From assembly GCF_000163295.1 (NCBI RefSeq), contig NZ_GG700527.1:1642469-1704361 (forward strand): a stretch of 61,893 bases of DNA. Direction: 5' to 3'. A program made the position numbers and the translations under genes. Under the pieces are notes generated by a model. That model ran no database searches. It had not been told where the DNA came from and saw only the letters and a program-made list of their open reading frames with translations. This document shows positions 34,491 through 61,893 of the stretch, piece by piece (position 1 is the first letter of the stretch; every line of letters begins with the position of its first letter). Source of the stretch: Anaerococcus vaginalis ATCC 51170 (GTDB lineage Bacteria; Bacillota; Clostridia; Tissierellales; Peptoniphilaceae).

Positions 34491-34514
34491 TATTTTATGA
34501 AAGAGAGCTGTAAG

Positions 34515-35891
34515 ATGAATCTAGAATACATAACTAATGAATTAAAAGAAAAAATGAAAATGAATGTTCCAGATCTTCAACAATACGAAACTTGGATTGG
34601 AATTTTAAAGCCACTAAATAAGTATGAAGATACTATTTATTTGGAAATTCCAAAAAATGATACTAAGTTTATTTTTGACCAAATTTGGGTTCCTCAACTC
34701 CAGTCTATTTTAAATGATATAAATAAGAGAGAAAATACGGCATATAAAATTGAAATTGTTGCCAAAGATGGACCTAATTATGATGAAGTTTTAAGTCTTG
34801 GAAAAAATGTTGATGATGATGGGCAACTAAGACTTAATAATGTAAATAAGTATCCTAAACCTCTTCTTGAAAAAAATAATGTTTTTAAAAATTTTGTCCA
34901 AGGAAAATCAAATCAATTAGCTCTTGCTGCAAGCCAATCTGTTGCTGAAAATATGGCTAATTATAAGGTTTCAAGAGTTTACAATCCGCTTTTTATTTAT
35001 GGAGCAAGTGGACTTGGAAAAACTCATCTTATGCAGGCTATAGCTCATGAAATTCTTGAAAAAAGAGATGATTGCTATGTGATGTATCTTTCTAGTGAGA
35101 AATTTACTAATGAAATGATTTCTGCTGTTAGAAATAATACTAATGAAGAATTTAGGAAAAAATATCGTTCTGTTGATATGCTTTTGATTGATGATATTCA
35201 ATTTATTGCCAATAAAACTGGTACTCAAGAAGAATTTTTCCATACTTTTGAAGATTTATATAATCAAGGAAAACAAATTGTAATTTCATCAGATAGGCCT
35301 CCAAAAGAAATTAAGCACTTGGAAGATAGGCTTGTTTCAAGATTTGGTTGGGGAATTATAGTTGATATTTCAAAACCTGATTTTGAAACAAGGGTTGCAA
35401 TTTTACAAAAAAAACAAGATGAGCTTGGAGCTGTTGTTGATTATAAAATTTTGGAATATATTGCAGAAAATATCGAAACAAATATTAGGGATCTTGAAGG
35501 AGCCTTGGCAACTTCAATTGCTTGTGCAAAATCAAATAACAGATCATTTGTAAGCCTTGAAGATGCAAGACTTGGTGTAAGTTCAAGAGTTCATAATGAT
35601 AGAAAAAAAATAAATGCAGAAGATATTCAAAAAAAAGTTGCTGAAAGATACCATGTAAAACTTGCTGATCTTAGAGGTAAATCTAGAAAAAAAGAAATAG
35701 TAATGCCAAGACAAATTGCTATGTATCTTTGCAGGGATCTTTTATCAATTTCTTTGGTAAGTCTTGCCAATGAATTTAATAGAGATCATACAACGGTTAT
35801 GCATGGTCATGATAAAATTAAAGATTTAATGGAAGAAGACCAAGATTTTAGGCAAGAAATAGAAGATATAATTAAAGAAATAAAAGCTTAG
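34515..35891 (+). CDS. dnaA: Chromosomal replication initiator DnaA
   Basis: A 458-residue DnaA. Domain I opens MNLEYITNELKEKM; the AAA+ domain has Walker A GASGLGKTHLMQ, Walker B MLLIDDIQF and the box VII region DRLVSRFGWG; domain IV ends with the DnaA-box-binding signature FNRDHTTVMHGHDKI. I start at 34515, where AGAG lies 7 bases upstream; the ATG at 34497 has no RBS and abuts a DnaA box. DnaA boxes flank it on both sides, so it is probably autoregulated. Confidence 0.97.
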   Translation: MNLEYITNELKEKMKMNVPDLQQYETWIGILKPLNKYEDTIYLEIPKNDTKFIFDQIWVPQLQSILNDINKRENTAYKIEIVAKDGPNYDEVLSLGKNVDDDGQLRLNNVNKYPKPLLEKNNVFKNFVQGKSNQLALAASQSVAENMANYKVSRVYNPLFIYGASGLGKTHLMQAIAHEILEKRDDCYVMYLSSEKFTNEMISAVRNNTNEEFRKKYRSVDMLLIDDIQFIANKTGTQEEFFHTFEDLYNQGKQIVISSDRPPKEIKHLEDRLVSRFGWGIIVDISKPDFETRVAILQKKQDELGAVVDYKILEYIAENIETNIRDLEGALATSIACAKSNNRSFVSLEDARLGVSSRVHNDRKKINAEDIQKKVAERYHVKLADLRGKSRKKEIVMPRQIAMYLCRDLLSISLVSLANEFNRDHTTVMHGHDKIKDLMEEDQDFRQEIEDIIKEIKA

Positions 35892-36066
35892 TTATCCACA
35901 AATTGTGTATAAGTTTGAGGATAAGCTTGTTTATAAGCTTAACTTTCTAAAAAAATTATTTTAGCCTGTGGATTGTGTGGAAAAGTGGATGACTTATAAA
36001 AACTTATCCAAAACTTATTATTTGAGTTTTTAATTTATAAATAAAGCTTTGTAAGACTTATCCACA
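35892..36066. other. Origin, downstream DnaA-box cluster between dnaA and dnaN
   Basis: TTATCCACA occurs at 35892-35900 and 36058-36066, and TGTGTATAA (reverse TTATACACA) at 35904-35912. Several near matches lie between, for example TTATCCAAA near 36004. With the upstream cluster it makes a bipartite origin like that of Bacillus subtilis, with unwinding probably in this AT-rich gap. A dnaN promoter should also lie here. Confidence 0.85.
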
Positions 36067-36123
36067 TATATACACTACCTAATACTAATACTACTAAGTT
36101 TATATAATATGTTAGGAGCAAAT

Positions 36124-37236
36124 ATGAAAATAGAAATTCAACAAAAAGATTTATCAAATAAAATTTCCATAGCTTTGAAAGCTGTTTCGAGAAAAACCAA
36201 TATACAAATACATGAATTAATATACTTTGAAGCAAAAAATGATACTTTAACACTAACATCATCAGATGGAGAAATATCTATTGTAACAAAAGCCAATTGT
36301 AAGGTAGTACAAGAAGGCGAAATGGCAATAAATGCAAATATAATTGCAAATATTGTAAGAAAACTTCCAGATGAGCTAATAAAAATTGAGCTAGAAGATT
36401 CAAAAATAAAAATCAAATGCAATGGTTCAAACTTTAATATCCTAGCTTTTGATTATTATGAAAAGAAAAATTTTTCTATACCAAGCGTTGATTATTTAGA
36501 AATTCAAAATGATAAATTGAAAAGATCAATTTCACAAACAGAATTTGCAACAAGCTTGGACGAGACAAAACTTGCTCTTACAGGAATTTTGTTTGAATTA
36601 AAAGATGGATATTTAAATTTTGTAGCCCTTGATGGTTATAGGGTTGCCCTTAAAAAATTAAAATTATCATATCCATCATCAATGGATAAGGCTAGACTTA
36701 TTATTCCAAGAAAATCTATTTCTGAATGGACAAGGATAATTGATGATGAAAAAATTACAAAAATTTATAAAGACGACAAGGATATAATTTTTGAATCTGG
36801 AGATACTACAATGTATTGCAAGGTAATTGATAAAAATTATATTGATTACACAAATATAATTTCAGATATTTCTACAACAAGCCTTGTTGTTGATAGGCAA
36901 GAACTTATTAATTCTTTGGAAAGAGCTCAATTATTAAACAATACCCAAAGGGCAAATCTTATAAAAATAAATATAGAAGATGATAAGTGCCTAATCGAAT
37001 CAAATTCTGAAATTGGAGATTTGAAAGAAGTTTTACAAATTCAAAAAGAAGGCGATGATGTAAAAATTGCCTTTAATGCAAGATATTTGATAGAAGGAGT
37101 TAAGGCTTGTGATACCCAAACTATAAGAATGCATTTAAAATCATCTCTAAATCCATGCCTTATTTATCCAAACGAATCAAAATATGATGATGAAGAATTT
37201 ACTTATCTTGCCCTTCCAGTTAGACTTGCAGAATAG
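36124..37236 (+). CDS. dnaN: DNA polymerase III sliding clamp (beta)
   Basis: A 370-residue clamp starting MKIEIQQKDL, with three tandem clamp domains by length and the C-terminal LPVRLAE close to the family's MPMR(L) end. I choose the ATG at 36124, because TTAGGAG lies 5 bases upstream, over an in-frame ATG 15 bases earlier. It tethers the replicative polymerase. yaaA follows 8 bases later. Confidence 0.95.
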   Translation: MKIEIQQKDLSNKISIALKAVSRKTNIQIHELIYFEAKNDTLTLTSSDGEISIVTKANCKVVQEGEMAINANIIANIVRKLPDELIKIELEDSKIKIKCNGSNFNILAFDYYEKKNFSIPSVDYLEIQNDKLKRSISQTEFATSLDETKLALTGILFELKDGYLNFVALDGYRVALKKLKLSYPSSMDKARLIIPRKSISEWTRIIDDEKITKIYKDDKDIIFESGDTTMYCKVIDKNYIDYTNIISDISTTSLVVDRQELINSLERAQLLNNTQRANLIKINIEDDKCLIESNSEIGDLKEVLQIQKEGDDVKIAFNARYLIEGVKACDTQTIRMHLKSSLNPCLIYPNESKYDDEEFTYLALPVRLAE

Positions 37237-37244
37237 GAGTTTTT

Positions 37245-37454
37245 ATGGAAAAGATAGAATTTGAATGCGACGAGATTTTAGCAAAAGATCTTTTAAAGGC
37301 AACGGACATAGCCCAAAGTGGAGGAGAAGCCAAACATTTTATAAAAGAATATGGAATTTTGGTAAATGGCGAAGAATTTTTCCAAGCTGGCAAAAAACTT
37401 TATAAGGGCGATGAAATAGAATTTGACAATCAATTTTTAATAAGTCTTGTATAA
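37245..37454 (+). CDS. yaaA: S4-domain RNA-binding protein YaaA
   Basis: A 69-residue S4-like domain protein (LLKATDIAQSGGEAKHFIKE then ILVNGE), as found between dnaN and recF in many Firmicutes. Such S4 proteins bind structured RNA, probably ribosomal. Its stop overlaps the recF start by one base. Confidence 0.9.
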   Translation: MEKIEFECDEILAKDLLKATDIAQSGGEAKHFIKEYGILVNGEEFFQAGKKLYKGDEIEFDNQFLISLV

Positions 37455-38527
37455 TGTGGATTCAAAATTTAAAACTCAATAAATTTAGAAATTATCTTTC
37501 TCAAAATATAGAATTTAATGAAAATATAAATATATTTTTGGGAGATAACGCCCAAGGAAAAACAAATTTACTTGAAAGTATATATTATTTGGCAAATGCA
37601 AAAAGTTTTAAATCCTTTAGGGACAAGGACCTTATAATGTTTAATGAAAAAGAAATGTCCCTTGATGGAATTATTAGAAAAAATCAATCATTTAAAAATG
37701 TTCATATAAGTGTAAATGAAAATAAAAAAGATATATTTGTAAATGAAATAAAATATGACAAAAACAAGGATTTAAAATCTCTTTTTAAGTTAGTTTTATT
37801 TACACCAGAAGATTTAAATATAATAAAAGATGGACCAAATTTTAGAAGAGACTTGATTGATGATATAATAATTAGTGTTAATTTTAGCTACAAGGCAGTT
37901 AAAAAGGATTTTGATAAAATTTTAAGCCAAAGAAATAAATTATTAAAAAATCAAAGGTCAAAATATTTTAAAACTGAGCTTATGGCATTTGACCAGCAAA
38001 TAATTAGGCTAAATTATAAAATTTATAGGTTTAGGGAAAAATATATTTCCCTAATAAATACCTATGCCAATAAAAATCATTTAAATCTTACAGAAAATAA
38101 GGAAAATTTAACCATAATTTATAAGCCAAACATTAGGGCAAAATCAATGGAAGAATATGGGGAAAAATTTTCTAAAAATATTTCTGATGATTTAAAATAT
38201 TTTAGGACTACATCAGGCAGTCAAAGAGATGAAATTGATATAATAATAAATGGCAAAGATACAAAAAAATTTGGATCTCAAGGTCAACAAAGATCTGCTA
38301 TTTTGAATATTAAACTTGCCAATGTAAATTTAATAGAAAATACTAGCCAAGATAAGGCGATAATCTTATTTGACGATGTTTTTTCAGAACTTGATGAAAA
38401 AAGATCAAATTTTTTATTGGAAAATTTAGGAGAATTTCAAACAATAATTACAGCAACAAACACCAAAAGTTTGGATGGGGTTAGTAGTAGTAAAATTAGA
38501 AAAATAAAAGATGGTCGAATTAAATAA
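37454..38527 (+). CDS. recF: DNA replication and repair protein RecF
   Basis: A 357-residue SMC-like ATPase. Walker A is FLGDNAQGKTNLLESI, the signature region is FGSQGQQRSAILNIKLA, and Walker B is AIILFDDVFSELDEKR. It helps load RecA at gaps. It starts at the stop of yaaA and precedes gyrB by 14 bases. Confidence 0.96.
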   Translation: MWIQNLKLNKFRNYLSQNIEFNENINIFLGDNAQGKTNLLESIYYLANAKSFKSFRDKDLIMFNEKEMSLDGIIRKNQSFKNVHISVNENKKDIFVNEIKYDKNKDLKSLFKLVLFTPEDLNIIKDGPNFRRDLIDDIIISVNFSYKAVKKDFDKILSQRNKLLKNQRSKYFKTELMAFDQQIIRLNYKIYRFREKYISLINTYANKNHLNLTENKENLTIIYKPNIRAKSMEEYGEKFSKNISDDLKYFRTTSGSQRDEIDIIINGKDTKKFGSQGQQRSAILNIKLANVNLIENTSQDKAIILFDDVFSELDEKRSNFLLENLGEFQTIITATNTKSLDGVSSSKIRKIKDGRIK

Positions 38528-38541
38528 TAGAAAGGAATCTT

Positions 38542-40446
38542 ATGGAAAATTCAGAATATAATGCATCGAACATTAGGGTCTTAAAAGGACTTGAACCAGT
38601 AAGACTTAGACCTGGAATGTATATAGGTTCAACAAGCGAAAGGGGACTTCATCACTTAGTTTACGAAGTTGTAGACAATTCTGTTGATGAGGCTCTTGCA
38701 GGTCGTTGTGACTACATAAAAATAAGTATTGATGAAAATAATATAGTAACAGTAGAAGATGATGGATCAGGAATACCTATTGAAAAGCATCCACAAACTG
38801 GAAAATCAACCCTAGAAACAGTTCTTACAGTTTTGCACGCTGGTGGAAAATTTGACGATAAGGCTTACAAGGTTTCAGGAGGACTTCACGGAGTTGGAGT
38901 TTCAGTTGTAAATGCTCTAAGCGAATATTTAATTGCAGAAGTAAAAAGAGAAGGTCATATTCATAGAATGACTTTTGAAAGAGGAAAACCAACAAGTGAT
39001 CTTGAAATTGTTGGAGATACAAAAGAAAGTGGAACAAAAATCACTTTTAAAGCAGATCCAGAAATTTTTGATGTAACTGTTTATGATAAAAAAACCTTAG
39101 AAAATAGATTTAGGGAAATGGCCTTTTTAAATAAGGGAGTAAGACTTATTTTTGAAGATAAAAGAGATGAGTCAGAAATTGAATTTAAATATGACGGTGG
39201 AATCAAAGAATTTGTAGAATATTTAAATAGAAATAAAACTCCAATCTTTAAAGAAGTACCATATTTTGAAGGACGTCAAGAATCTACAGAAATAGAAATT
39301 TCTTTTCAATATACAGATGGATATAGCGAAAATATCCTAACATTTGCAAATAATATTTACACCCTAGAAGGTGGAACTCATCTTTCAGGATTTAGGTCAG
39401 CTTTGACAAGAAGTGTAAATGATTATGCTAGAAAATATAATCTTTTAAAAGAAAATGAAGATAATCTTCAAGGAGATGATGCAAGAGAAGGAATTACTGC
39501 AATTATTTCAGTAAAAATTTCAAATCCTCAATTTGAAGGACAAACAAAGGGAAAACTTGGAAATAGCGAAGTAAGAGGAGCAGTTGATGCATTTTTCTCA
39601 GAGCACATGGGAAATTTCTTAGAAGAAAATCCAAAAATTGCCAAAACTATAATCCAAAAAGCCCTAGCATCTAGAAGGGCAAGAGAGGCTGCAAGAAAAG
39701 CAAGAGATTTAACAAGAAAAAGATCAATTCTTGATTCAACAACTCTTCCAGGAAAACTTGCCGATTGCCAATCTCAAGATATAGGAGAAAATGAAATCTT
39801 TATAGTAGAGGGTAATTCAGCTGGTGGATCTGCAAAAGGCGGTCGTGACAATAGAATTCAAGCAATTCTTCCTCTAAGAGGAAAAATAATGAATGTAGAA
39901 AAGGCAAATCTTGATAGGATTTTAAATTATGAAGAAATAAAATCAATGATTACAGCTTTTGGTACAGGAATTGGTTCGGAATTTGATATAAGTAAACTCC
40001 GCTATGGAAAAATTATAATTATGACAGATGCCGATGTAGATGGGGCTCACATTAGAACCTTACTTTTGACATTTTTCTATAGATACATGAAACCACTTGT
40101 AGATGGAGGGCATATTTATATTGCCCAACCACCACTTTATAAAATTTCAAGTGGAAAAAAAGAAAGATATTGCTATACAGATAAAGAGTTAGATGAAATT
40201 GTAAAAGAATGGAAAGTAGATAATTACAAAATTTCTAGATACAAGGGTCTTGGAGAGATGAACGCAGAGCAATTGTGGGAAACAACAATGGATCCAGAAA
40301 ACAGAGTCTTACTTCAAGTTTATGAAAAAGAAGATTCACAAATGTCAACAGACGCAACATTTTCAATGCTAATGGGTGAAAAGGTAGAACCTAGAAGAGA
40401 ATTTATAGAAGAAAACGCCCAATATGTTGAAAACTTAGATGTCTAG
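38542..40446 (+). CDS. gyrB: DNA gyrase subunit B
   Basis: A 634-residue GyrB. The GHKL ATPase domain shows VVDNSVDEALAG, DDGSGIP and GGLHGVGVSVVNALS, and the TOPRIM domain shows EGNSAGGSAKGGRD and DADVDGAHIRTLLL. The C-terminus ends normally. It pairs with GyrA encoded 8 bases downstream to introduce negative supercoils. Confidence 0.97.
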   Translation: MENSEYNASNIRVLKGLEPVRLRPGMYIGSTSERGLHHLVYEVVDNSVDEALAGRCDYIKISIDENNIVTVEDDGSGIPIEKHPQTGKSTLETVLTVLHAGGKFDDKAYKVSGGLHGVGVSVVNALSEYLIAEVKREGHIHRMTFERGKPTSDLEIVGDTKESGTKITFKADPEIFDVTVYDKKTLENRFREMAFLNKGVRLIFEDKRDESEIEFKYDGGIKEFVEYLNRNKTPIFKEVPYFEGRQESTEIEISFQYTDGYSENILTFANNIYTLEGGTHLSGFRSALTRSVNDYARKYNLLKENEDNLQGDDAREGITAIISVKISNPQFEGQTKGKLGNSEVRGAVDAFFSEHMGNFLEENPKIAKTIIQKALASRRAREAARKARDLTRKRSILDSTTLPGKLADCQSQDIGENEIFIVEGNSAGGSAKGGRDNRIQAILPLRGKIMNVEKANLDRILNYEEIKSMITAFGTGIGSEFDISKLRYGKIIIMTDADVDGAHIRTLLLTFFYRYMKPLVDGGHIYIAQPPLYKISSGKKERYCYTDKELDEIVKEWKVDNYKISRYKGLGEMNAEQLWETTMDPENRVLLQVYEKEDSQMSTDATFSMLMGEKVEPRREFIEENAQYVENLDV

Positions 40447-40454
40447 GAGGATAA

Positions 40455-42896
40455 ATGACAGAAGAAAGCTATAAAAACATCATAGAGGTAGATCTCGAAA
40501 AGCAAATGAGAAGTGCTTACTTGGAATATTCCATGTCAGTAATTGTTTCAAGAGCCCTACCAGATGTACGTGATGGATTAAAACCAGTTCATAGAAGAAT
40601 TTTATACGGAATGGAAGGTCTTGGACTTGATCCAAATAAGCCAACCAGAAAATCAGCCAGAGTTGTCGGAGAGGTTATGGGTAAATTCCACCCTCATGGA
40701 GACTCTGCAATCTACGATGCCCTTGTAAGACTTGCTCAAGATTTTTCAACTAGGTATCCTTTGGCAAGCGGTCAAGGAAACTTTGGTTCAATTGATGGCG
40801 ATGACGCAGCAGCTATGCGTTATACAGAAGTTAAAATGAGCAAAATCGCCAAGGAAATGCTTAGAGATATAAACAAAGATACAGTTGATTTTATGCCAAA
40901 CTTTGATGAAGAAGAAAAAGAACCAACAGTTCTTCCATCAAGATTTCCAAATCTTTTGGTAAATGGATCAAATGGTATAGCAGTAGGAATGGCAACCAAT
41001 ATGGCTCCTCATAATTTGGGAGATTCAATTGATGCTTGTATTGCTTATATGAAAAATCCAGAAATTTCTATAAAAGAATTGGCAGAAATTATAAAAGGAC
41101 CAGATTTTCCAACTGGAGCACAAATTCTTGGAAAATCCGGAATCAAAAAAGCCTACAAAACAGGACGTGGAAAATTAAAACTTCGTGCTGTTGCAAAAAT
41201 TGAACCTTTCAAAAAAAATAGGGAAAGAATAATAGTTACTGAAATTCCTTACCAAGTAAATAAGGCAAATTTAATCAAAAAAATTGCTGAATATGTTAAA
41301 GATAAAAAGCTAGAAGGAATTTCAGATATTAGAGATGAATCCGACAGAAAGGGAATGAGAATTGTAATTGAGGTAAAAAGGGATGCAAATGCAAATATAG
41401 TCCTAAATAATCTTTACAAACAAACTCAACTTGAAACAACTTTCGGAATTATAAATCTTGCCCTAGTAGATGGTGTTCCAAAAATTCTTGATTTAAAAGA
41501 ACTTATAAAATACTACATTGAACATCAAAAAAATGTAGTAAGAAGAAGAACAAGATTCGACCTTGATAAGGCTCAAAAGAGAAAACACATAGTTGAAGGT
41601 TTGATTATTGCCATTGATAATATCGATGAAATTATTAAAATAATCAGATCATCTTATGATAACGACCAAATCAAAAAAATATTTAATGAAAGATTTGGCC
41701 TAACAGATTTACAATCTCAAGCAATTCTTGATATGCAATTAAAAAGACTATCAGGTCTTGAAATTGAAAAATTGCAAGCAGAAGATAAGGAATTAGCTGA
41801 AAAAATCGAATATTTTACATCGATTTTAAATGATGAAGAAAAATTAATTGGTGTTATCGAAGAAGAAATTTTAGAAATAAAAGAAAAATTTGCTGATGAC
41901 AGAAGAACGAAAATTGTTCCAGATGAGGGAGAATTTGATATTGAAGAATTGATTGAAAAAGAAGACGTATTAATTTCTTTAACTCATGATGGTTATATAA
42001 AAAGACTTCCAATAAATACTTATAAGGTACAAAATAGGGGAGGAAAGGGAATTTCCGCTGGAAATACAAAGGAAAATGACTTTATCCAAAAAATTCTTAC
42101 AACAAACACTCACGAATCCTTACTTTGCTTTACAAATCTTGGAAGAGTTTATTCACTAAATTGCTACGAAATTCCAGAAGCAAGCAGGCAATCAAGAGGT
42201 CAAGCTATAATAAATATAATTTCTCTTGCAACAAATGAAAAAATAACTGACATAATGGAATTATCAGAGCTTAGTGACAACAGCCAATTAGTCTTCCAAA
42301 CTGAAAAGGGAAAAATCAAAAAAACTGATGCCCAATTATTTACAAATATTCAAAGAAATGGAATTATAGCAATTTCACTTGAAGATGATGATAGACTTGT
42401 TTCAATTAGGCAAATAGATCATCCTTGTGATATAATTGTAACAACTCAAAAAGGAATGGCAATAAAATTTGCCTCATCAGACATCAGATCTATGGGAAGA
42501 AATGCTCGTGGAGTAAGGGCTATTAGACTTTCTAAAGATGACAATGTTGTGTCAATGAATATAGTTGAGGATGAAGTTTATTTGCTAGTAGTAACTGCAA
42601 ATGGTTTTGGTAAAAAAACATCCTTCAATAATTTTAACAATCAAAATAGGGGAGGAAAAGGTGTAAGATGCCACAAAATCACAGAAAAAACTGGAAATGT
42701 GGTAGCAACTCTTCCTGCTAATTTGGATGACGACATAATGATGGTTTCCTTAAAAGGAGATATGATTAGAATATCAGCAAGAGACATATCAACAACAGGT
42801 AGAAATACCCTAGGAGTAAAATTAAAGAATTTAGAAAATACTGAGGACTTTATTGTTTCTGTAACCAAATATTATGAAGAAAACAGCGAGGACTAG
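40455..42896 (+). CDS. gyrA: DNA gyrase subunit A
   Basis: An 813-residue GyrA. The catalytic tyrosine is Y123 in AAAMRYTEVKM. The quinolone-resistance region reads HPHGDSAIYDALVR with S84 and D88 (E. coli Ser83/Asp87), i.e. the sensitive-type residues. The C-terminal DNA-wrapping domain contains the GyrA box-like QNRGGKG. It is followed 2 bases later by an anti-sigma antagonist gene. Confidence 0.97.
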   Translation: MTEESYKNIIEVDLEKQMRSAYLEYSMSVIVSRALPDVRDGLKPVHRRILYGMEGLGLDPNKPTRKSARVVGEVMGKFHPHGDSAIYDALVRLAQDFSTRYPLASGQGNFGSIDGDDAAAMRYTEVKMSKIAKEMLRDINKDTVDFMPNFDEEEKEPTVLPSRFPNLLVNGSNGIAVGMATNMAPHNLGDSIDACIAYMKNPEISIKELAEIIKGPDFPTGAQILGKSGIKKAYKTGRGKLKLRAVAKIEPFKKNRERIIVTEIPYQVNKANLIKKIAEYVKDKKLEGISDIRDESDRKGMRIVIEVKRDANANIVLNNLYKQTQLETTFGIINLALVDGVPKILDLKELIKYYIEHQKNVVRRRTRFDLDKAQKRKHIVEGLIIAIDNIDEIIKIIRSSYDNDQIKKIFNERFGLTDLQSQAILDMQLKRLSGLEIEKLQAEDKELAEKIEYFTSILNDEEKLIGVIEEEILEIKEKFADDRRTKIVPDEGEFDIEELIEKEDVLISLTHDGYIKRLPINTYKVQNRGGKGISAGNTKENDFIQKILTTNTHESLLCFTNLGRVYSLNCYEIPEASRQSRGQAIINIISLATNEKITDIMELSELSDNSQLVFQTEKGKIKKTDAQLFTNIQRNGIIAISLEDDDRLVSIRQIDHPCDIIVTTQKGMAIKFASSDIRSMGRNARGVRAIRLSKDDNVVSMNIVEDEVYLLVVTANGFGKKTSFNNFNNQNRGGKGVRCHKITEKTGNVVATLPANLDDDIMMVSLKGDMIRISARDISTTGRNTLGVKLKNLENTEDFIVSVTKYYEENSED

Positions 42897-43541: not shown

Positions 43542-44312
43542 ATGGCAGATACAAAAGAATCTCTTGAAAGAAAAAAAGAGATCAAAGAAAAATTTGAACA
43601 ATTTTATAAAACAAGGGACAAGGATCTGAGAAATGAGCTTATAGAAGATCACATGTATATAGTCGACATCCTTTCCAACAAATACGTAGGAAAAGGAATC
43701 GAAAAAGATGACCTTTATCAAGTAGCATCTCTTGGTCTAATCTATGCCATTGATAGGTACGATCCATCAAAAGGATACGAATTTTCATCCTTTGCAACTC
43801 CAACAATAATGGGCGAGCTAAAAAGATATTTTAGGGACAAGGGCTGGGTAATAAGAGTTCCAAGAAGAATTCAAAATCTCTACAAAAAAATAAATGTAGC
43901 AAAAAAAATTCTTCCCCAAGAACTCCAAAGAACCCCAACTATAAAAGACATTGCAGCTTACCTTGGAGAAGATGAAGAAACAATTCTTGAAACAATAGAG
44001 GCAAGCAAGGTTTATTCCCCACAAAGTTTGGATATGAAATATCAAGTCCAAAAAGGAGAAAATTCCGTAGATTTATCCGACATGATAGGAGAAGACGACA
44101 AAAATTTTGATTCAGTAGAATTAAAAGATTTGATAGATAAGTCAACCGAAAGACTAAACGACTTAGAAAAACAAATTTTAGAATTAAGATACTACGAAGG
44201 AAGAACCCAAGTAGATATAGCAAATAAACTTTCTATTTCTCAAATGACAGTATCAAGAATAGAGAAAAAAATTCTACAAAAATTCACAATAGAAATGCAA
44301 AAAATGCAATAA
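43542..44312 (+). CDS. Sigma factor of the SigB/SigF/SigG group
   Basis: A 256-residue sigma-70 family protein. Region 2 shows DDLYQVASLGLIYAIDRYDP and FSSFATPTIMGELKRYFRDK, region 3 follows VIRVPRRIQ, and region 4 shows the HTH RTQVDIANKLSISQMTVSRI. It is preceded by its putative antagonist and anti-sigma. No sporulation genes are in the window, so a general stress or envelope role is more likely than sporulation, but the regulon cannot be inferred. Confidence 0.93.
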   Translation: MADTKESLERKKEIKEKFEQFYKTRDKDLRNELIEDHMYIVDILSNKYVGKGIEKDDLYQVASLGLIYAIDRYDPSKGYEFSSFATPTIMGELKRYFRDKGWVIRVPRRIQNLYKKINVAKKILPQELQRTPTIKDIAAYLGEDEETILETIEASKVYSPQSLDMKYQVQKGENSVDLSDMIGEDDKNFDSVELKDLIDKSTERLNDLEKQILELRYYEGRTQVDIANKLSISQMTVSRIEKKILQKFTIEMQKMQ

Positions 44313-44604: not shown

Positions 44605-44633
44605 TTGACAAAAACATAAATATAAACTATAAT
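44605..44633 (+). promoter_or_regulatory. oppA promoter
   Basis: TTGACA (44605-44610), 17 bp, TATAAT (44628-44633): a perfect consensus promoter about 45 bp before the oppA start. This fits the high expression usual for substrate-binding proteins. Confidence 0.85.
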
Positions 44634-44676
44634 GTATTCATATAAATCAAAAATAAAAAGAAAAGAGGAGAGAAGG

Positions 44677-46803
44677 ATGAATGTAAAAAAAGTTTTCTCA
44701 CAAGCTTTTGCGCTTGGCTTAGTTTTAACACTTACTGCTTGTGGCGGTAGCGGAAACAAAGACAATAACGGCTCAAATGCTGGAGACAACAATGCAAGTA
44801 ACGAACAAGCTAAGGATGAAGAATTTAAAAAGCAAACTAATGATGATACACTTGTAGTAGGTGTTGATTCACTTGGTGGAGAATTCATCCAAGGTTTTAA
44901 TAACAGCCAAAACGACGTAAGAGCAAGAGAATTTATGGGAATCCAAGGTTCTGTTGGTTATGATACTTATGTTAAAGATAAGGGTGGAAAATATGTAGTT
45001 AATAAAACAGTTCTTGATGGAGATCCTCAAGAAAAAGAAAATGAAGATGGCTCAAAAACTTTCACTTTCAAAATTAAAAAAGATCTTAAATGGTCTGATG
45101 GTAAACCTGTAACTGCTGATGATTATTTATTCAAAGCACTTTTACACTCACCACAAGACTATTCTCTTATAACAGGATCTACTGAAATCGGTGGAGATTC
45201 ATTAAAGGGTTACAATGACTTTAGAGAAGGTAAAACTAAAGAATTTGAAGGTGTTAAGAAAATTGATGATCAAACATTTGAAATTACAATTGATTCATCA
45301 TTCTTACCATACTATGAAGAAGAATCTCTAAAAGCAATGAACCCAAGACCAATGCATTATATTGCTCCAAACTTAACAATTGATGGATCTAAATTTGCTC
45401 TTAAAGATGGATATAAATTATCTGACGATGATAAAAAAGCTTTCATTGAATCACTTGATAAGCAAATTGAAACAGAAAAATCTGAATATGATGCAGAAGT
45501 AAAAGAAGCTGGCGAAGAAGATCCAGAATACAAAAAAGAACACGAAGAGAAATTAAAAACTCTTGAAGATAAGAAAAAATCTGCTGAAAGCGGAAATGAT
45601 ATAGACCCTACAGAAATGCTTGTTGAACAAGCTATGCTTTTTGATGCAAATGACTACAGAAAAGCACCAAAAGTTACTTGTGGACCTTATAAATTTGTTT
45701 CATTTGAAAATAATATGGTTAAAATGGAACTTAACGACCAATATGCTGGAGATTTTGAAGGACACAAAGCTACAATTCCAAATGTAATCATTCAAGCAAT
45801 AAACCCAGAAATATCTGTAGACCTTGTTAAAAATGGGGACATAGATGTATTCGAAGATGAAATGAATGGTTCAAGAATTTCTCAAATTAGAAAAGCTGCT
45901 GAAGAAAAGAAATTGCAATATGTAGCTTACGACAGAAATGGTTATGGATGTTTATCATTCTTAGATGATAGGGGACCAACTCAATACAAAGAAGTAAGAC
46001 AAGCAGTAGCATTTTTAATGAACAGAGATGATTTCGTACAAAACTTTGCAGGTGGATATGCAGTAGTAACAAACGGAATGTATGGTTCTAGCCAATGGAT
46101 GTATAAAGAAAGAGGAGCTGACGTAGAAGCTAAACTTACAAAATATACATTAAATGTTGATGAAGCTAACAAGAGATTAGATAATTCTCCATACAAATTT
46201 GAAAAAGATGGAAAAACTCCTTGGGATGTTAAAAAAGCAGCAGAAGAATACAAAAATAATGCTGACAAATTTGATTACTATAGATATGATGAAAATGGAA
46301 AGAAATTGCAAATCAACCAATTTGGTGCAAAAGAATCAGAAATAACAACACTTCTTTCAAATCAATTACCAGACAATGCTAAACAAGCAGGACTTGAATA
46401 CAATGTTCAAGCAGGTGACTTTAATACTCTTCTAAACTACAGAGAAAATCCAAAAGAAGGAGATAAAGCAGAATACACAGCATTTAACATGGGACTTGGA
46501 TTTGGATCACCATTTGATCCTTACTACCAATACAATAGTAAAGGAAATGACAACAAAACAAAGACAAATGATCCAAAAGTTGATAAAATCACAGAAGAAT
46601 TAAGACAAGTAAAACCTGGTGATGAAAAAGCTTATCTAGATAAATGGGAAGAATTCCAAGAGTGGTACAATGATTACCTTCCAGAAATTCCACTTTATTC
46701 TAACAATATCCACTCATCAGCATCAACAAGAGTTCAAGGATTTGATGGTTTAACACCAGAATGGGCAGTATCTTGCCAAATCAACCAAATGAGTCTTAAA
46801 TAA
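44677..46803 (+). CDS. oppA: Oligopeptide-binding lipoprotein OppA
   Basis: A 708-residue family-5 solute-binding protein. The signal peptide ends in the lipobox LTAC (Cys near residue 22), so the protein is anchored outside the membrane. WSDGKPVTADDYLFKA is a family signature. Around residues 251-314 there is an extra highly charged, helix-prone block (for example SLDKQIETEKSEYDAEV) that splits lobe I; typical OppA is about 540-600 residues. I start at 44677 after GAGGAGAGAAGG, not at an ATG 45 bases earlier. It has its own terminator and lies 0.7 kb before oppB. Confidence 0.93.
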   Translation: MNVKKVFSQAFALGLVLTLTACGGSGNKDNNGSNAGDNNASNEQAKDEEFKKQTNDDTLVVGVDSLGGEFIQGFNNSQNDVRAREFMGIQGSVGYDTYVKDKGGKYVVNKTVLDGDPQEKENEDGSKTFTFKIKKDLKWSDGKPVTADDYLFKALLHSPQDYSLITGSTEIGGDSLKGYNDFREGKTKEFEGVKKIDDQTFEITIDSSFLPYYEEESLKAMNPRPMHYIAPNLTIDGSKFALKDGYKLSDDDKKAFIESLDKQIETEKSEYDAEVKEAGEEDPEYKKEHEEKLKTLEDKKKSAESGNDIDPTEMLVEQAMLFDANDYRKAPKVTCGPYKFVSFENNMVKMELNDQYAGDFEGHKATIPNVIIQAINPEISVDLVKNGDIDVFEDEMNGSRISQIRKAAEEKKLQYVAYDRNGYGCLSFLDDRGPTQYKEVRQAVAFLMNRDDFVQNFAGGYAVVTNGMYGSSQWMYKERGADVEAKLTKYTLNVDEANKRLDNSPYKFEKDGKTPWDVKKAAEEYKNNADKFDYYRYDENGKKLQINQFGAKESEITTLLSNQLPDNAKQAGLEYNVQAGDFNTLLNYRENPKEGDKAEYTAFNMGLGFGSPFDPYYQYNSKGNDNKTKTNDPKVDKITEELRQVKPGDEKAYLDKWEEFQEWYNDYLPEIPLYSNNIHSSASTRVQGFDGLTPEWAVSCQINQMSLK

Positions 46804-46823
46804 GATTTAATTAAATAAAAGAC

Positions 46824-46853
46824 AAAAAGAAGCCATAAATTTGGCTTCTTTTT
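46824..46853 (+). terminator. oppA terminator
   Basis: AAAAAGAAGCC and GGCTTCTTTTT form a perfect 11-bp stem with an 8-base loop, 20 bases after the oppA stop. It probably sets a higher level of OppA than of the membrane subunits. Confidence 0.93.
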
Positions 46854-47316
46854 AATTGATTTGAGTTGATGAGTATAAAATTTCTTTTTATATGCTTAGC
46901 ATAAAAATTAGAAATGGAAGATGGCTACAAAATTTTTTGGAATTTAGAAATATAAATAGTAAAAATTTTGTAATTAATTTAAATTATTAGTTTGTTTTAT
47001 AAGGAGTTCTTTATTTGCTTTGATTTTTAGTACATTGTATAAATTTAGCTAATAGAAATCTATTTCTAGAAAAGTCACAAAATTTTTTTGCTTTATAATC
47101 AAATTTATTTTTCTTTGTTAATATCATTTTTTATTAATTTATATTTTTTTATTTTTATTAATTCCTAAATTTATCTTTATAAATCAAAATCATTAGAGTA
47201 TTAACGCATTGTATAATAATTTTTCAATTAATATGCATTGAGATAAGTTTTTGCTCATAAATAATGAATTTTTAAAAATAAATGTCAATCTTTATAAGTT
47301 TATGACAAATTTTTCG

Positions 47317-47345
47317 TTGACAAATATGGGTTTTTATATTAATAT
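47317..47345 (+). promoter_or_regulatory. Probable oppBCDF promoter
   Basis: TTGACA (47317-47322) with TAATAT 17 bp downstream (47340-47345); TATAAT also occurs 3 bases further. It would leave a leader of about 165 nt before oppB. The rest of the 46854-47519 spacer is AT-rich with no gene, and no riboswitch-like fold stood out. Confidence 0.6.
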
Positions 47346-47519
47346 AATGGTTATGATATTATAAGTTTACTCTATCTAATTTTTTTATATTTATTTATAA
47401 ATTTCTATAAGTAATATTTTCTTAGTCAAAATCTTTGTTGAAGATTATAAGGATTTTTAATTAATCAATGTGAATAAAATATTAGTTGGTAAGCTTAAAA
47501 ACATAAGGAAGGGATGAAT

Positions 47520-48482
47520 ATGTTAAAATACATAGTAAAAAGAATCATTAATTTGATTCCAGTAGCCATAATTATATCTATTTTGGTTTTTGTACTTTCT
47601 AAATCAATGCCTGGCGATCCTGTTTTAGCTATGATGCCAAAGGATGGAAGAATGACCAAGGCCCAACAAGAACAAATGTATAAAAATCTTGAAAAACGTT
47701 ATGGTTATGATAAATCGTTGCCAGAGCAATATTTTATGTGGATGGGAAGAAGTTTGAAGGGGGATTTTGGTGAATCTACTCAATCTAAAAGGCCTGTAAA
47801 GGAATATCTTTCTGAACCACTTAAAAACACAATTTTATTAAATATAGGATCGACTCTTGTTTCTTTTGTGCTTTCGGTGCTTATTGGAATAAGGTCGGCT
47901 GTTCATAAGGGAGGATTTTTTGATAAGTTCTTCCAGGTGTTTACTCTTGTTGGAATTTCTTTGCCTACATTTTTTATAGGATTATTTTTGATATTCTTAT
48001 TTGCTTTTAGGCTAGGATGGTTCCCTGCTAATGGTATGCCTAGAAATAATACTTTTGGCGAATGGGTTAAGTATTTAATCCTACCTACTTTGACTTTGAC
48101 TTTTGGTTCTATGGCATCTATTTCTAGATATGTAAGAAATTCTATGCTTGATTCTCTTAATGAGGATTATATTAGAACTGCAAGGGCTAAGGGTTTAAAG
48201 GAAAAAACTGTAATTTATTCTCACGCTTTTAGAAATGCCCTAATTCCGGTTGTAACTGCTATGACTTGGGCAATTCTTTCTATGTTTTCAGGTTCTGCTA
48301 TAACTGAAACTATTTTTGCTTACAGGGGAATTGGAAATATTCTTATTAAATCTGTTTTAGCTCAAGATTATAATGTTATTCTTGCTTTAACTATGTTTTA
48401 TGCAATTTTAACTCTTCTTGGAAACTTGATTATGGATATTGCTTATGCTCTTGTAGATCCTAGAGTAAAATTGGAGGCTTAA
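47520..48482 (+). CDS. oppB: Oligopeptide ABC transporter permease OppB
   Basis: A 320-residue permease starting MLKYIVKRIINLIPVAI, with six membrane segments and the EAA-type loop EDYIRTARAKGLKEKTVIYSHAFRNALIPV that contacts the ATPases. The ATG at 47520 has AAGGAAGG at good spacing; the ATG at 47514 is too close. Normal length for the family. oppC starts one base after the stop, with GGAGG inside the oppB end. Confidence 0.95.
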   Translation: MLKYIVKRIINLIPVAIIISILVFVLSKSMPGDPVLAMMPKDGRMTKAQQEQMYKNLEKRYGYDKSLPEQYFMWMGRSLKGDFGESTQSKRPVKEYLSEPLKNTILLNIGSTLVSFVLSVLIGIRSAVHKGGFFDKFFQVFTLVGISLPTFFIGLFLIFLFAFRLGWFPANGMPRNNTFGEWVKYLILPTLTLTFGSMASISRYVRNSMLDSLNEDYIRTARAKGLKEKTVIYSHAFRNALIPVVTAMTWAILSMFSGSAITETIFAYRGIGNILIKSVLAQDYNVILALTMFYAILTLLGNLIMDIAYALVDPRVKLEA

Positions 48483-48483
48483 T

Positions 48484-50385
48484 ATGAAAGATGAATTAAA
48501 TAAATCATTTAAATCTTTTGGTAGATTAGTTCTTTCTTTGTTTACTTTTGGAACTAGGGCAAATAATGAAGAAGCTGATGTAAATCTTGGAGATGTTAAT
48601 CCTAAAAATGAAAATGAGGCTTTGAAGGAAGATGCCATTACTTCTCCTGGAAAAATGGCTGTAAAAAATTATTTTAGAAATCCTTTGGGAGTTATCGGTC
48701 TTCTTTTGATGCTTGGAATTATTCTAGCAGTTTTTGTTGGATCTGCATTAATTCCTTTTAATCCTTACCAATCTGAGGGTAACCTTATAAATGTTTCTGC
48801 AGGTTCTGGATATATGAAATATCCTTCTGAAATGGAAAAAGAAGGTGTAGAAAGAATTTCTGTAGGAAATACTTTTGGTGTAGGTCTTACTAAAAAGAAA
48901 AATTTCTATTATTGGGGCAAAAATAACGAAGATGATGTTATGAAAATGCCTGATGATATAAAGGAAAAACTTGATGGCAAAAAAATAAAAGATGTTGCAG
49001 CTGGGGATAGACATATTCTTGTTGCAACTGAAGATAATGAAGTTTATGGTTGGGGTAATGATTCTTTCCAACAAACAAAACTTCCACCAATGCAAGAAAG
49101 CCAAATCAAACAAGAAGGCATCAAAAAACTTGGCGGTGGAGTTCAATATTCTGTTGTTTTAACAGAAAAAAATAATATATACGTTTGGGGTTCTACAATG
49201 AACTCAAGACTTGATCTTATTCCAAAAGAAGTTCAAGGAAAAGTTGTTGATTTTGATACAAGTGGTTCAAATATTTTGGCTGTATTAAAAGATGGCTCTA
49301 CAAAACTTCTTGGTGTAAGAGGAGCTGAGGTAGATGTTGGAGCGCCAGATGAAATTAAAAATAATAAGGTAAAAATTTCTAAGGTTGCCTTAACTTCAAA
49401 TTCTGCGGCAGCTCTTGATGAAAATGGAAAACTTTATGTTTGGGGACCTTCAAGAGCTAATTTATCTGGAGATAATGTTCCAAAAATTAAGGGCAAAATT
49501 AAAGATATAGTTGCAGGAACAAATCATTTTACTGCCCTTGATGAAGATGGAAAATTGTATTCTTGGGGAAATAATAATTATGGCGAAGCAGATGCTCCTA
49601 GTGGAAAATATGAAAAAGTATTTTCTGGTTATTTCAACAATTATGCTGTAAGCAAGGATTCTAAAATTGATACATGGGGACTTAAAGGATTTAAATTTGG
49701 ATCAGATGACCAAGGTCGTGACATTTTTACAAGATTAATTCACGGTGGAAAAATGACCATAATAATTTCTTTTGTATCAGTTCTTATCCAAGTAGTTCTT
49801 GGTGTAATTATTGGTATGGTTTCAGGTTATGCTGGTGGACGTGTTGACAATGTTTTGATGAGAATTACAGAAATTGTTCAATCATTCCCATTTTATCCAT
49901 TAATTATTACACTTTCAGCCCTACTTCCTGTAAATACTAGTCAAAATACAAGACTTATGATGATCATGGTTTTACTTGGTGTTATTGGATGGACAGGAAT
50001 TGCAAGACTTGTTCGTGGACAAATTCTTGCTGAAAGAGAAAGAGATTATGTAATTGCAGCTAAAGCCCTTGGTGTTACAAATTCGTCAATTCTTGTAAGA
50101 CATATTTTGCCAAATATCCTATCAATAATAATTGTAAATGCAACTCTTGGATTTGCAGGAAACCTACTTACTGAAGCAGGTCTATCATTTTTAGGATTTG
50201 GTGTTCAAGAGCCAATGCCATCTTGGGGTAATATGATGACAAGTGCCCAATCATCAGATGTAATTAATATTTATTGGTGGAGATGGGTAATTCCAGCTCT
50301 TGCAGTATTTTTGGCAGCATTTTCAGTAAACTTGATTGGAGATGCTCTAAGAGATGCAATAGACCCAAGATCAAATGAGAGATAG
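48484..50385 (+). CDS. oppC: OppC permease with an inserted RCC1-like beta-propeller
   Basis: A 633-residue OppC, about twice the usual 300. TM1 is at about 68-90. The canonical permease resumes at FGSDDQGRDIFTRLIHGGKM (from 405) and holds five more TM segments and the EAA loop ERERDYVIAAKALGVTNSSI. Between them, residues 121-402 form seven repeats of about 45 residues, each with a (V/A)xxGxxxxxAL strand pattern and most ending in Y-x-W-G (WG at 144, 190, 235, 320, 361 and 398; LG at 276). Seven repeats are enough to close an RCC1-type propeller. The loop after TM1 is extracytoplasmic in this family, so the propeller should face outside. Confidence 0.93.
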   Translation: MKDELNKSFKSFGRLVLSLFTFGTRANNEEADVNLGDVNPKNENEALKEDAITSPGKMAVKNYFRNPLGVIGLLLMLGIILAVFVGSALIPFNPYQSEGNLINVSAGSGYMKYPSEMEKEGVERISVGNTFGVGLTKKKNFYYWGKNNEDDVMKMPDDIKEKLDGKKIKDVAAGDRHILVATEDNEVYGWGNDSFQQTKLPPMQESQIKQEGIKKLGGGVQYSVVLTEKNNIYVWGSTMNSRLDLIPKEVQGKVVDFDTSGSNILAVLKDGSTKLLGVRGAEVDVGAPDEIKNNKVKISKVALTSNSAAALDENGKLYVWGPSRANLSGDNVPKIKGKIKDIVAGTNHFTALDEDGKLYSWGNNNYGEADAPSGKYEKVFSGYFNNYAVSKDSKIDTWGLKGFKFGSDDQGRDIFTRLIHGGKMTIIISFVSVLIQVVLGVIIGMVSGYAGGRVDNVLMRITEIVQSFPFYPLIITLSALLPVNTSQNTRLMMIMVLLGVIGWTGIARLVRGQILAERERDYVIAAKALGVTNSSILVRHILPNILSIIIVNATLGFAGNLLTEAGLSFLGFGVQEPMPSWGNMMTSAQSSDVINIYWWRWVIPALAVFLAAFSVNLIGDALRDAIDPRSNER

Positions 50386-50393
50386 GTGTAAAA

Positions 50394-51398
50394 ATGAAAA
50401 ATTTACTTGAAATAAAAAAACTTCATACCTACTTTGAAACAAGACGTGGTCTTATAAAAGCGGTAAACGGAGTATCATGCACAATTGAAGAAGGAAAAAC
50501 TTTGGGTTTGGTTGGAGAAAGTGGTTCTGGAAAAAGTCAAACTGCTATGAGTATTTTGCAACTTTTTGAGCCAAACCAAAAAATCTACAGCGGAGAAATT
50601 ATTTTTGATGGTAAAAAGATTTCTGATTTTAATAGAAATCAAATGGAAAAGGTAAGGGGAAATGATATTTCTATGATTTTCCAAGAACCTATGAGTTCCC
50701 TTAATCCAGTTTTTACAGTAGAAAAACAAATTTCAGAAGTTTTAATTCTTCACAAAAAAATGAATAAAAAAGAGGCTTCAAAAAGAGTGGAGGAATTACT
50801 TGCTCAAGTAAAAATTCCAAATCCTCACGTTGTTGCAAAACAATATCCATTTGAGCTTTCTGGTGGTATGAACCAAAGGGTTATGATTGCTATGGCGCTT
50901 GCTTGTGAGCCAAAATTATTAATTGCAGATGAGCCAACAACAGCCCTTGACGTTACAATCCAAGCTCAAATTCTAAAATTGATGAACGAATTAAAGGAAA
51001 AACAAAATACTTCAATTTTATTTATAACTCACGATTTGGGAGTAATAAATCAAATGGCAGATGAGGTTGCTGTAATGTATTGTGGACAAATAGTAGAACA
51101 ATCTCCAGTTGATTATATTTTTAAACACGATATAACAGATTACAACCACCCTTACACAATTGCTCTTTTAAATTCTATTCCAGCAATTACAAGTGATAGA
51201 AATGAAAGACTCGATATTATACCTGGTTCTGTTCCACATCCACTTAACCTTCCTGATGGATGTAAATTTGCAGATAGGTGTAAGTATGCTACAGAAAAAT
51301 GTAGGAAAGAAATGCCAGAGCTTGTATCAGTAAATGAAAATCAAAAAATAAGATGCCACTTTCCAAATAGAAAGGAGAGAGAAGATGGAGAAAAATAA
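50394..51398 (+). CDS. oppD: Oligopeptide ABC transporter ATPase OppD
   Basis: A 334-residue ATPase of normal length. Walker [11 protein letters not shown]-loop IFQEP, signature [15 protein letters not shown], Walker [13 protein letters not shown] and H-loop THDLG are all present. The C-terminal oligopeptide-type extension carries the Cys pattern [14 protein letters not shown] then C, fitting the Fe-S-cluster-like motif of the family. The stop overlaps the start of oppF by 14 bases. Confidence 0.96.
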
Positions 51399-53001
51399 TA
51401 AAAAGATCTTATTTAAAATAAGAAATCTCAAAAAATATTTCCCAATCAAGAAAAAATCTATCTTTTCTAGGGGAGCAAACGAATATGTCCATGCAAATGA
51501 AAATATTTCTATAGATATATTTGAAGGCGAAACTTTTGGTTTGGTTGGAGAAAGTGGTTGTGGAAAATCTACTTTTGGTAGGACAATCCTTCAAATTTAT
51601 GAACAAACTGAAGGAACTACTCTTTATTATGGAACAACTCTTGATAGACTTGCCCCAGCTTATATGGGAAAAGATATTAAAGAAATTCCAAAAAAATTCC
51701 CTTCTTATGATAAGGAAGTTGAAAAACTTCATTCAATTTATGACGAGCTAGAAAAAACTGAAGATGAAGAAAAAAAAGCTGAATTAAACGAAGCTGCTAT
51801 GCATCAAAGAAGACTTCTCCAAGAAGATTATGAAAATATGATGAGAATAGCAGGAGGACTTCTTGCAAGCGACAATTTGTCAGAAATTTCTTCTATTCTT
51901 GATGATTATTACAAAAAAATCAAGGAAAGATCAAAAGTTTTACTAGACATTAAAAAAATCGAAGAAAAAGACGAAGTAAGGATTAGAGATAAAAAAGAAT
52001 TAAAAGATGCTATTCTAAACGATCCAAAATACAAGGAACTTTTGAATAAAAAAGAAAAACTTGATAAGGAAGTTTTGGAAAAAGAGCAAAAAATATCTGC
52101 TAAAAAAGAAGAATTAAAATCAAAAGAGCTTTTTGAAAAATTTGAAAGTTTTGTAGATGATGGAATTGATCTTTCAAGACTTACAAACGAAGAAATGAGA
52201 GAACTTAGAAAAGATCTTCAAATAATTTTCCAAGATCCTTATGGTTCTTTGGATACAAAAATGACAGTTGGAAATATTATTGGAGAAGGAGTTTTGGGCC
52301 ACGGACTTTTCAAATCAAGAAGTGAAGCAGGCTATAACGAATATATCCAAGATATAATGAACCAATGTGGACTTGCTCCATATTTTATTCATAGGTATCC
52401 TCACCAATTTTCCGGTGGACAAAGACAAAGAATTGGAATTGCCAGAGCACTTGCCTTAAATCCAAAATTTATAGTTTGCGATGAGGCAGTATCAGCCCTT
52501 GACGTTTCAATCCAATCACAAATTATAAATCTATTGCAAGATTTAAAAACTGACTTAAATTTAACATATTTATTTATAACTCATGATCTTTCAGTTGTAA
52601 AATATATTTCTGATAGGATTGGAGTAATGTATTTGGGAGTTATGGTTGAGCTTTCAGATTCTGATAGAATTTTTGCAAATCCACAACACCCTTACACAAA
52701 AGCACTCTTGCAAGCAATCCCTAGAACTGATGTTGATAAGGGACAAGAGCTTCAAACAATTGAAGGAGATATTCCATCAGCAGTAAGACCACCAAAGGGT
52801 TGTCGTTTCCATACAAGGTGTAAATATTGCATGGATATTTGTAAACAATTTGAGCCAGAGCTTAAAGAAGTAGAAAAAGGCCACTTTGTAGCTTGCCATT
52901 TGATGGATGTATCAGAAGAAACAAAAATGAAAGCCTTCGAAAAAAATGAAGAAGAAAGACTTAAAAAAGAACATGAATTAGCCAAGGAAGCTAATCTATG
53001 A
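51385..53001 (+). CDS. oppF: OppF ATPase with a large coiled-coil-like insertion
   Basis: A 538-residue OppF, over 200 residues longer than usual. Walker A is GESGCGKST (55-63). After TEGTTLYYG (76-83) the normal text is broken by about 175 charged, helix-prone residues (84-258, rich in Lys and Glu) and resumes at DGIDLSRLTNEEMRELRKD with Q-loop IFQDP (Q283). Signature FSGGQRQRIGIARAL, Walker B FIVCDEAVSALD and THDLS follow. The C-terminal Cys motif matches OppD. The catalytic core looks intact, so the insertion is probably an added regulatory or docking domain. Confidence 0.93.
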   Translation: MEKNNKKILFKIRNLKKYFPIKKKSIFSRGANEYVHANENISIDIFEGETFGLVGESGCGKSTFGRTILQIYEQTEGTTLYYGTTLDRLAPAYMGKDIKEIPKKFPSYDKEVEKLHSIYDELEKTEDEEKKAELNEAAMHQRRLLQEDYENMMRIAGGLLASDNLSEISSILDDYYKKIKERSKVLLDIKKIEEKDEVRIRDKKELKDAILNDPKYKELLNKKEKLDKEVLEKEQKISAKKEELKSKELFEKFESFVDDGIDLSRLTNEEMRELRKDLQIIFQDPYGSLDTKMTVGNIIGEGVLGHGLFKSRSEAGYNEYIQDIMNQCGLAPYFIHRYPHQFSGGQRQRIGIARALALNPKFIVCDEAVSALDVSIQSQIINLLQDLKTDLNLTYLFITHDLSVVKYISDRIGVMYLGVMVELSDSDRIFANPQHPYTKALLQAIPRTDVDKGQELQTIEGDIPSAVRPPKGCRFHTRCKYCMDICKQFEPELKEVEKGHFVACHLMDVSEETKMKAFEKNEEERLKKEHELAKEANL

Positions 53002-61814: not shown

Positions 61815-61893
61815 ATAATTGAGAGTTTGATCCTGGCTCAGGATAAACGCTGGCGGCGTGCATAACACATGCAAGTCGAACGATGAACCTTAA
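61815..61893 (+). rRNA. rrs: 16S ribosomal RNA (5' end only)
   Basis: GAGTTTGATCCTGGCTCAG begins at 61823, followed by the conserved ACGCTGGCGGCGTG and ACACATGCAAGTCGAACG. By alignment to the E. coli numbering the gene starts at about 61815. The window ends after some 79 bases. Confidence 0.97.

Follow-up and report, generated by a model that had tools for sequence, protein, structure and literature searches.

An OppC-type permease of Anaerococcus vaginalis ATCC 51170 carries, within a single reading frame, a domain that is predicted to fold as a seven-unit propeller of the RCC1/BLIP-II type, and such permeases are nearly always accompanied by an OppF ATPase with a long insert of its own. Both genes lie in the window (the whole stretch of DNA that was analysed, 61,893 nucleotides; assembly GCF_000163295.1, contig NZ_GG700527.1, positions 1,642,469-1,704,361 of the forward strand), in an operon at 44632-53001 (+ strand) whose order, oppA-oppB-oppC-oppD-oppF, was established from the open reading frame (ORF) list, Pfam and NCBIfam. 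The usual picture of an Opp importer is a minimal machine of five parts; in this case one permease has an entire propeller built in, and many families of a single phylum have kept it. The parts belong to known families, and the novelty lies in how they are combined, in how widely this occurs and in the OppF insert that goes with it. A literature search confined to open-licence papers turned up none that describes an RCC1 domain in OppC or in a peptide permease. The features of OppC, including its first and second transmembrane helices (TM1 and TM2), are:

48484..50385, + strand: oppC-like permease with internal RCC1 propeller, 633 residues (single ORF, Pfam, AlphaFold2, fold search)
48682..48750, + strand: TM1, residues 67-89 (AlphaFold2 helix 67-89; hydropathy peak 68-86)
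48772..49698, + strand: insert in the TM1-TM2 outer loop with entry and exit linkers, residues 97-405 (not in aligned ordinary OppCs)
48844..49680, + strand: predicted seven-unit RCC1/BLIP-II-type propeller, residues 121-399 (units 122-145, 168-191, 213-236, 254-276, 298-320, 339-362 and 376-398)
49681..49722, + strand: exit linker and GSDxxGRD motif leading into TM2, residues 400-413 (conservation)
50032..50115, + strand: EAA/coupling region, residues about 517-544 (alignment A1; AlphaFold2 helix 517-528)

A sequence-only reading of this DNA had described a permease split after TM1 by RCC1-type repeats and continuing with an intact EAA loop, and both descriptions hold. Pfam placed OppC_N (residues 54-97, 29.5 bits, cut-off 23.9), RCC1_2 and BPD_transp_1 (440-629, 106.4 bits, cut-off 26.4) in the one 633-residue frame, and E519, A525, G530, H540 and P543 of the EAA region are invariant in alignment A1. 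With six TMs, the EAA coupling region and the fold of solved OppC/DppC chains, the protein belongs with these permeases; the NCBIfam Opp4C equivalog cut-off was missed (304.8 vs 350 bits), the matching stretch being the part after the insert (residues 403-629, model positions 57-278). Between TM1 and the G(S/T)DxxGRD motif lie 319 residues, compared with 22-29 in 37 ordinary OppCs, so the insert comes to ~290-300 residues, slightly more than the 280 first given, and it does lie outside the standard Opp model. Three K/R residues occur in the 15 positions preceding TM1 and none in the next 15, and this charge bias, together with homology, suggests that the loop is extracytoplasmic. The exit from the insert is strongly conserved: G399, G402, G406, D408, G411, R412 and D413 are invariant in 28 fused rows, and mean conservation was 3.12 for the exit linker and GSDxxGRD motif vs 2.10 for the propeller.

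The repeats were recognized by Pfam RCC1_2 at 126.3 bits on OppC (cut-off 22, five stretches) and at 134.2 bits on residues 97-402 alone (six stretches); RCC1 scored 24.0 (cut-off 21.7), and the longer WD40_RLD model stayed below its cut-off (133.3 vs 150). Seven units, the number proposed at first sight, are centred on (W/L)G at 144, 190, 235, 276, 320, 361 and 398, of which the fourth is degenerate, with LG in place of the WG of the six others. Structure prediction might have spoken against a propeller but returned one: AlphaFold2 (17 rows, pTM (predicted template modelling score) 0.53) gave seven three-strand units between residues 122 and 398, and a fold search with this predicted model found BLIP-II as the closest fold. 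A PF00415 search returned no match in the window's own genome, but as the control genomes were likewise without any match this result carries no weight. Collectively, these results support a predicted seven-unit RCC1/BLIP-II-type propeller in the outer loop of OppC, near the place where OppA would be expected to dock.

The insert was present in 31/31 Anaerococcus genomes examined, in the same open frame and without inner stops, and the OppC protein matches that of Anaerococcus obesiensis at 99%, with other Anaerococcus species close too. In the family, 45 of 130 genomes matched, though G039 did so only weakly and through a different protein, which brings the count to 44; in the order, 63 of 249 genomes held the full-length fusion (alignment A2, counted from the match listing). 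The class sample gave 17 matching genomes out of 391 and the phylum sample 14 out of 398, of which seven and two, respectively, belong to the window's order (alignment A3, E up to 1e-110). Four distant matches were put through Pfam (L179, L180, L181 and L189), and the remainder were assigned from the model match, the length of the loop and the WG motifs. In the class sample, the match in G463 is confined to model positions 165-607, yet the protein has Pfam matches to OppC_N, RCC1 repeats and BPD_transp_1. A scan of the close relatives in a named genome collection yielded 25 loci, comprising nine full fusions, nine with the permease part only and seven with the RCC1 part only. As judged from these matches, the fusion is widespread in the phylum. 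Spread by plasmids was rejected, since among 3271 plasmid records with some match none had one place covering 80% of the query. The sequence-only reading had also considered an assembly error, and a joining of two genes by faulty assembly or annotation was rejected as scarcely conceivable: nothing was found in its favour, and the uninterrupted frame recurs throughout the genus, in the family and order and in distant families of the phylum.

A tree was built from 95 permease cores stripped of the insert (123 rows thinned by identity; quick method, Shimodaira-Hasegawa-like approximate likelihood ratio test (SH-aLRT), no bootstrap, midpoint root), after dropping L180/L159 (motif unmatched), L171 and L053 (truncated or wrong start) and L079 (core too divergent for the motif). 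All 52 RCC1 rows fell on one side of a branch with an SH-aLRT of 98, and no unfused row, these being sampled from best matches only, fell inside the group. Most simply, OppC would have taken up the propeller once in its history. Other inserts occupy the same loop in 6 of the 95 rows, with four changes on the tree of which at least three are forced by starred branches, so that on this tree the TM1-TM2 loop acquired different inserts on at least three further occasions. Their loops measure ~290 residues in five loci, which thinning reduced to three rows, and 139, 107 and 49 in one row each, and Pfam found no match in the four such proteins scanned (two of the ~290 type, 139 and 107). The five loci with loops of ~290 (L109-L113) belong to other families of the order and have a longer OppD of 390-407 residues. 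In one genome (G187; L114, L115), three Opp sets follow one another: two are RCC1-OppC operons, and the OppC of the third has another insert that is shorter. This tolerance of the loop is what would be expected if the propeller were a passive insert in a permissive site, with no role beyond spacing. We consider that improbable, given its retention in every Anaerococcus genome examined, the lack of unfused rows in the 52-row group under the sampling just described, the invariant exit linker and the purifying selection on the propeller, for which the ratio of nonsynonymous to synonymous rates (dN/dS) was 0.14-0.36 compared with 0.03-0.17 for the core (five pairs, several with dS near 1).

The search for the architecture led beyond the sequence-only reading, which had missed the wide spread of the fusion, its single grouping on the permease tree and the association of the propeller with the OppF insert:

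51385..53001, + strand: oppF ATPase with insert, 538 residues (ORF, Pfam, alignment, AlphaFold2)
51637..52167, + strand: OppF insert between Walker A and Q-loop, residues 85-261 (alignment, AlphaFold2)

AlphaFold2 predicts the OppF insert to be helical (106-124, 128-155 and a long pair, 165-199 and 214-245). Block values of the predicted local distance difference test score (pLDDT) begin there at 51-65 and reach 87 midway; both ends of the insert, and residues 150-165, score below 50. The distance from Walker A to the signature was 247-289 in 34/34 measurable OppFs beside RCC1-OppC (in the other 18 of the 52 RCC1 rows OppF was incomplete in the stretch, in a split frame or without a motif match), 97-105 in 35/35 OppFs beside ordinary OppC and 96-100 in 6/6 beside other OppC inserts. 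In OppD the same distance was steady at 105-113, apart from one 185-residue frame (71) that is not the OppD of this operon. Among the 249 genomes of the order, 61 had both RCC1-OppC and long OppF, two RCC1-OppC only, one long OppF only and 185 neither; a long OppF was thus found in 62. The three out-of-step genomes are G200 (3494-base contig), G068 (OppF in two frames) and G223 (OppF match ending 17 bases from the contig end). A linkage without exception was rejected on account of one genome (G013; L076 3548-9150), where a second copy of RCC1-OppC lies in an oppB-oppC-oppA cluster that no OppD or OppF adjoins; with a single long OppF genome-wide, this set must either work with borrowed ATPases or stand idle. 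Because the fused rows make up a single group, the counts are not independent events, and a Fisher test on them should not be read as if they were. The OppF insert thus appears to be a second mark of this transporter subtype, nearly always found with the propeller. It had no Pfam match above cut-off, no NCBIfam match and no PDB relative worth naming (best PDB E 0.028); a fold search of the whole OppF model, in which the insert was not examined by itself, returned OppF/DppF and other ATP-binding cassette (ABC) ATPases, and nothing on point was among the literature matches listed. Four cysteines (residues 473, 479, 486 and 504) are invariant in the OppF alignment and resemble the iron-sulphur domain of DppD/DppF described in an excerpt of PMC12136057.

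OppF is the ATPase expected under OppC, and its helical insert may tune ATPase coupling or the stability of the complex. One explanation of the linkage is a functional pair across the membrane, in which the outer propeller would sense a ligand or partner and act through OppC with the OppF insert to switch or set the ATPase. The long OppF in all 34 measurable partners and in 0 of 41 others, the near-complete co-occurrence in the order and the pairing of DppC with DppF rather than DppD in the same excerpt (PMC12136057) all fit such regulation. We nevertheless regard it as doubtful, since linkage within one group may reflect a single joint event kept by descent, G013 indicates that a propeller-OppC need not own an OppF (though one may be shared), and propeller and OppF insert co-vary weakly once OppA and OppB are taken into account (partial r 0.148, p 0.02). 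It is likewise a tentative proposal that the OppC propeller and the OppF helical arm, paired across the membrane, define a distinct importer subtype in which recognition of loaded OppA outside would be read by the motor inside.

For the propeller itself, the best-supported function is a fixed platform that would dock or clamp the OppA lipoprotein, based on its position, on divergence that tracks OppA and on analogy with published pneumococcal Ami models; belief and doubt are evenly balanced here. We take AmiC to be the OppB counterpart and AmiD the OppC counterpart. The propeller would sit on the outer face, with the short exit linker tying it to the beginning of TM2, and loaded OppA would be held and aligned over the OppB/OppC pore, making the propeller the OppC-side counterpart of the extracellular domains on AmiC. 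According to portions of PMC12136057, the binding protein of DppABCDF caps DppB and DppC, whose TM1-TM2 regions are periplasmic and differ from each other. The portions of PMC11192437 at hand describe Ami models in which the loop between TM1 and TM2 of AmiD contacts lobe 2 of the binding protein, and two extracellular domains of AmiC may clamp that protein. The TM1-TM2 loop of OppC, in which the propeller sits, is a telling site. We compared divergence across 29 complete operons by rank-based partial correlations. With the permease core, OppD and OppF core removed, propeller divergence tracked OppA best (0.565), then OppB (0.415) and the OppF insert (0.306), and the value for OppA was 0.43 when OppB and the OppF insert were removed as well.

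Several observations weigh against OppA docking. The tracking signal is unspecific, as OppA and OppB also correlate at 0.446, and it may be inflated because propeller and OppA both evolve fast (mean distances 0.61 and 0.60, exceeded only by the OppF insert at 0.72); the tracking is therefore support and not proof. By the dN/dS ranges above, constraint on the propeller is weaker than on the core, and conservation of its loops marks no binding face beyond residues that we take to be typical of RCC1 repeats. The AlphaFold2 model, at its depth and pTM, does not fix the orientation of the propeller to the membrane, and the 37 ordinary OppCs in the sample manage without such a domain. A different role would be capture of a substrate or surface partner (peptides, cell-wall fragments, a protease or another protein) by the propeller itself, raising the local supply for OppA much as BLIP-II engages its target. 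That the closest fold is a secreted binder, that propellers are common binding scaffolds (PMC3797127, in part) and that the long inter-unit loops vary most (mean conservation 1.74 vs 2.44 for loops 1-2) agree with this role, which we still think unlikely: no conserved pocket was made out from conservation along the sequence, without mapping in three dimensions, and no widely shared extra gene lies near the operon (191 neighbour ORFs clustered from 43 fused loci, no cluster with more than six loci; among the five listed, one is exemplified by an OppF N-terminal fragment). Among the functions first suggested, OppA docking thus stands as the best supported, whereas peptide binding, cell-wall binding and sensing gained no positive evidence.

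The remaining features of the operon are:

44632..46803, + strand: oppA, SBP_bac_5 lipoprotein, lipobox LTACGG (ORF, Pfam)
OppA residues 251-337, + strand: extra segment of 87 residues (OppA alignment)
46824..46853, + strand: terminator-like hairpin in the oppA-oppB gap (12 pairs; shuffles mean 0.0, standard deviation 0.2)
47514..48482, + strand: oppB permease, 322 residues, ordinary size (ORF, Pfam, NCBIfam)
50394..51398, + strand: oppD ATPase of ordinary size (106 between Walker A and signature in almost all relatives)

The true start of oppA is probably at Met16 (44677). The hairpin lies just after oppA, at the oppA side of a 710-base gap (46804-47513), and this pattern suggests that oppA may be expressed separately from, and above, oppBCDF. 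The order A, B, C, D, F was also found in most fused loci long enough to show it, the exception being L076 (B-C-A, without D and F). OppA measured 598-866 residues in 34 RCC1 loci with an uncut upstream OppA and 505-635 in 26 others. An insert shared by the OppAs was rejected as a subtype marker, since the 87-residue segment of the window's OppA is filled in no more than 42% of fused rows. Upstream of the operon, dnaA, dnaN, an SMC_N/RecF-like gene, gyrB and gyrA lie together (34497-42896), so that the operon probably adjoins the chromosomal origin region, and a sigma-70 family factor with regions 2, 3 and 4 (43542-44312) directly precedes oppA. At gathering score, the single Rfam match in the window was the start of a small subunit (SSU) rRNA gene at its right end (61815-61893), with nothing at the operon.

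Propeller-OppC and long OppF mark a widespread version of a familiar transporter, whose mechanism is proposed here from sequence. The arm is on just one of the two ATPases, the one expected beneath the propeller-bearing permease, and the system offers a natural case of how an importer may treat its two halves differently, with binding-protein recognition on one side and tuning of one ATP site. It has in common with the type I Opp/Dpp importers (E. coli OppBCDF 8z21 and DppBCDF/DppABCDF 8z1v-8z1z; M. tuberculosis OppABCD 8j5q-8j5t) the permease core, six TMs, the EAA region, the subunit set and four conserved cysteines in the C-terminal region of OppF. The solved OppC/DppC chains, of 273-289 residues, align on both sides of the insert, which is missing there. 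Pneumococcal AmiACDEF is likewise a Gram-positive Opp-type system with large extracellular permease domains modelled as a binding-protein clamp; in the portions of PMC11192437 at hand these domains occupy region 31-278 of the 498-residue AmiC and are not termed propellers, and AmiD has a mere coil between TM1 and TM2, where the window's OppC has its propeller. The window's OppB is ordinary, and the domain is on OppC rather than on the OppB-type subunit. Mycoplasma OppD (NF043079) aligns with the window's OppF over 107-517, spanning most of the insert, but neither it nor OppF NF043078 was matched by the OppF insert alone, and the matching OppC model (NF043080) has 307 positions. BLIP-II (3qi0, 3qhy, 1jtd) is a secreted beta-lactamase inhibitor outside any transporter, whereas the window's propeller is within a permease. 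The RCC1-like domains of UVR8, RCC1, HERC2 and RPGR belong by sequence and fold to the same propeller superfamily as the insert but are eukaryotic, longer (about 360-400 residues in the matched structures) and have other functions.
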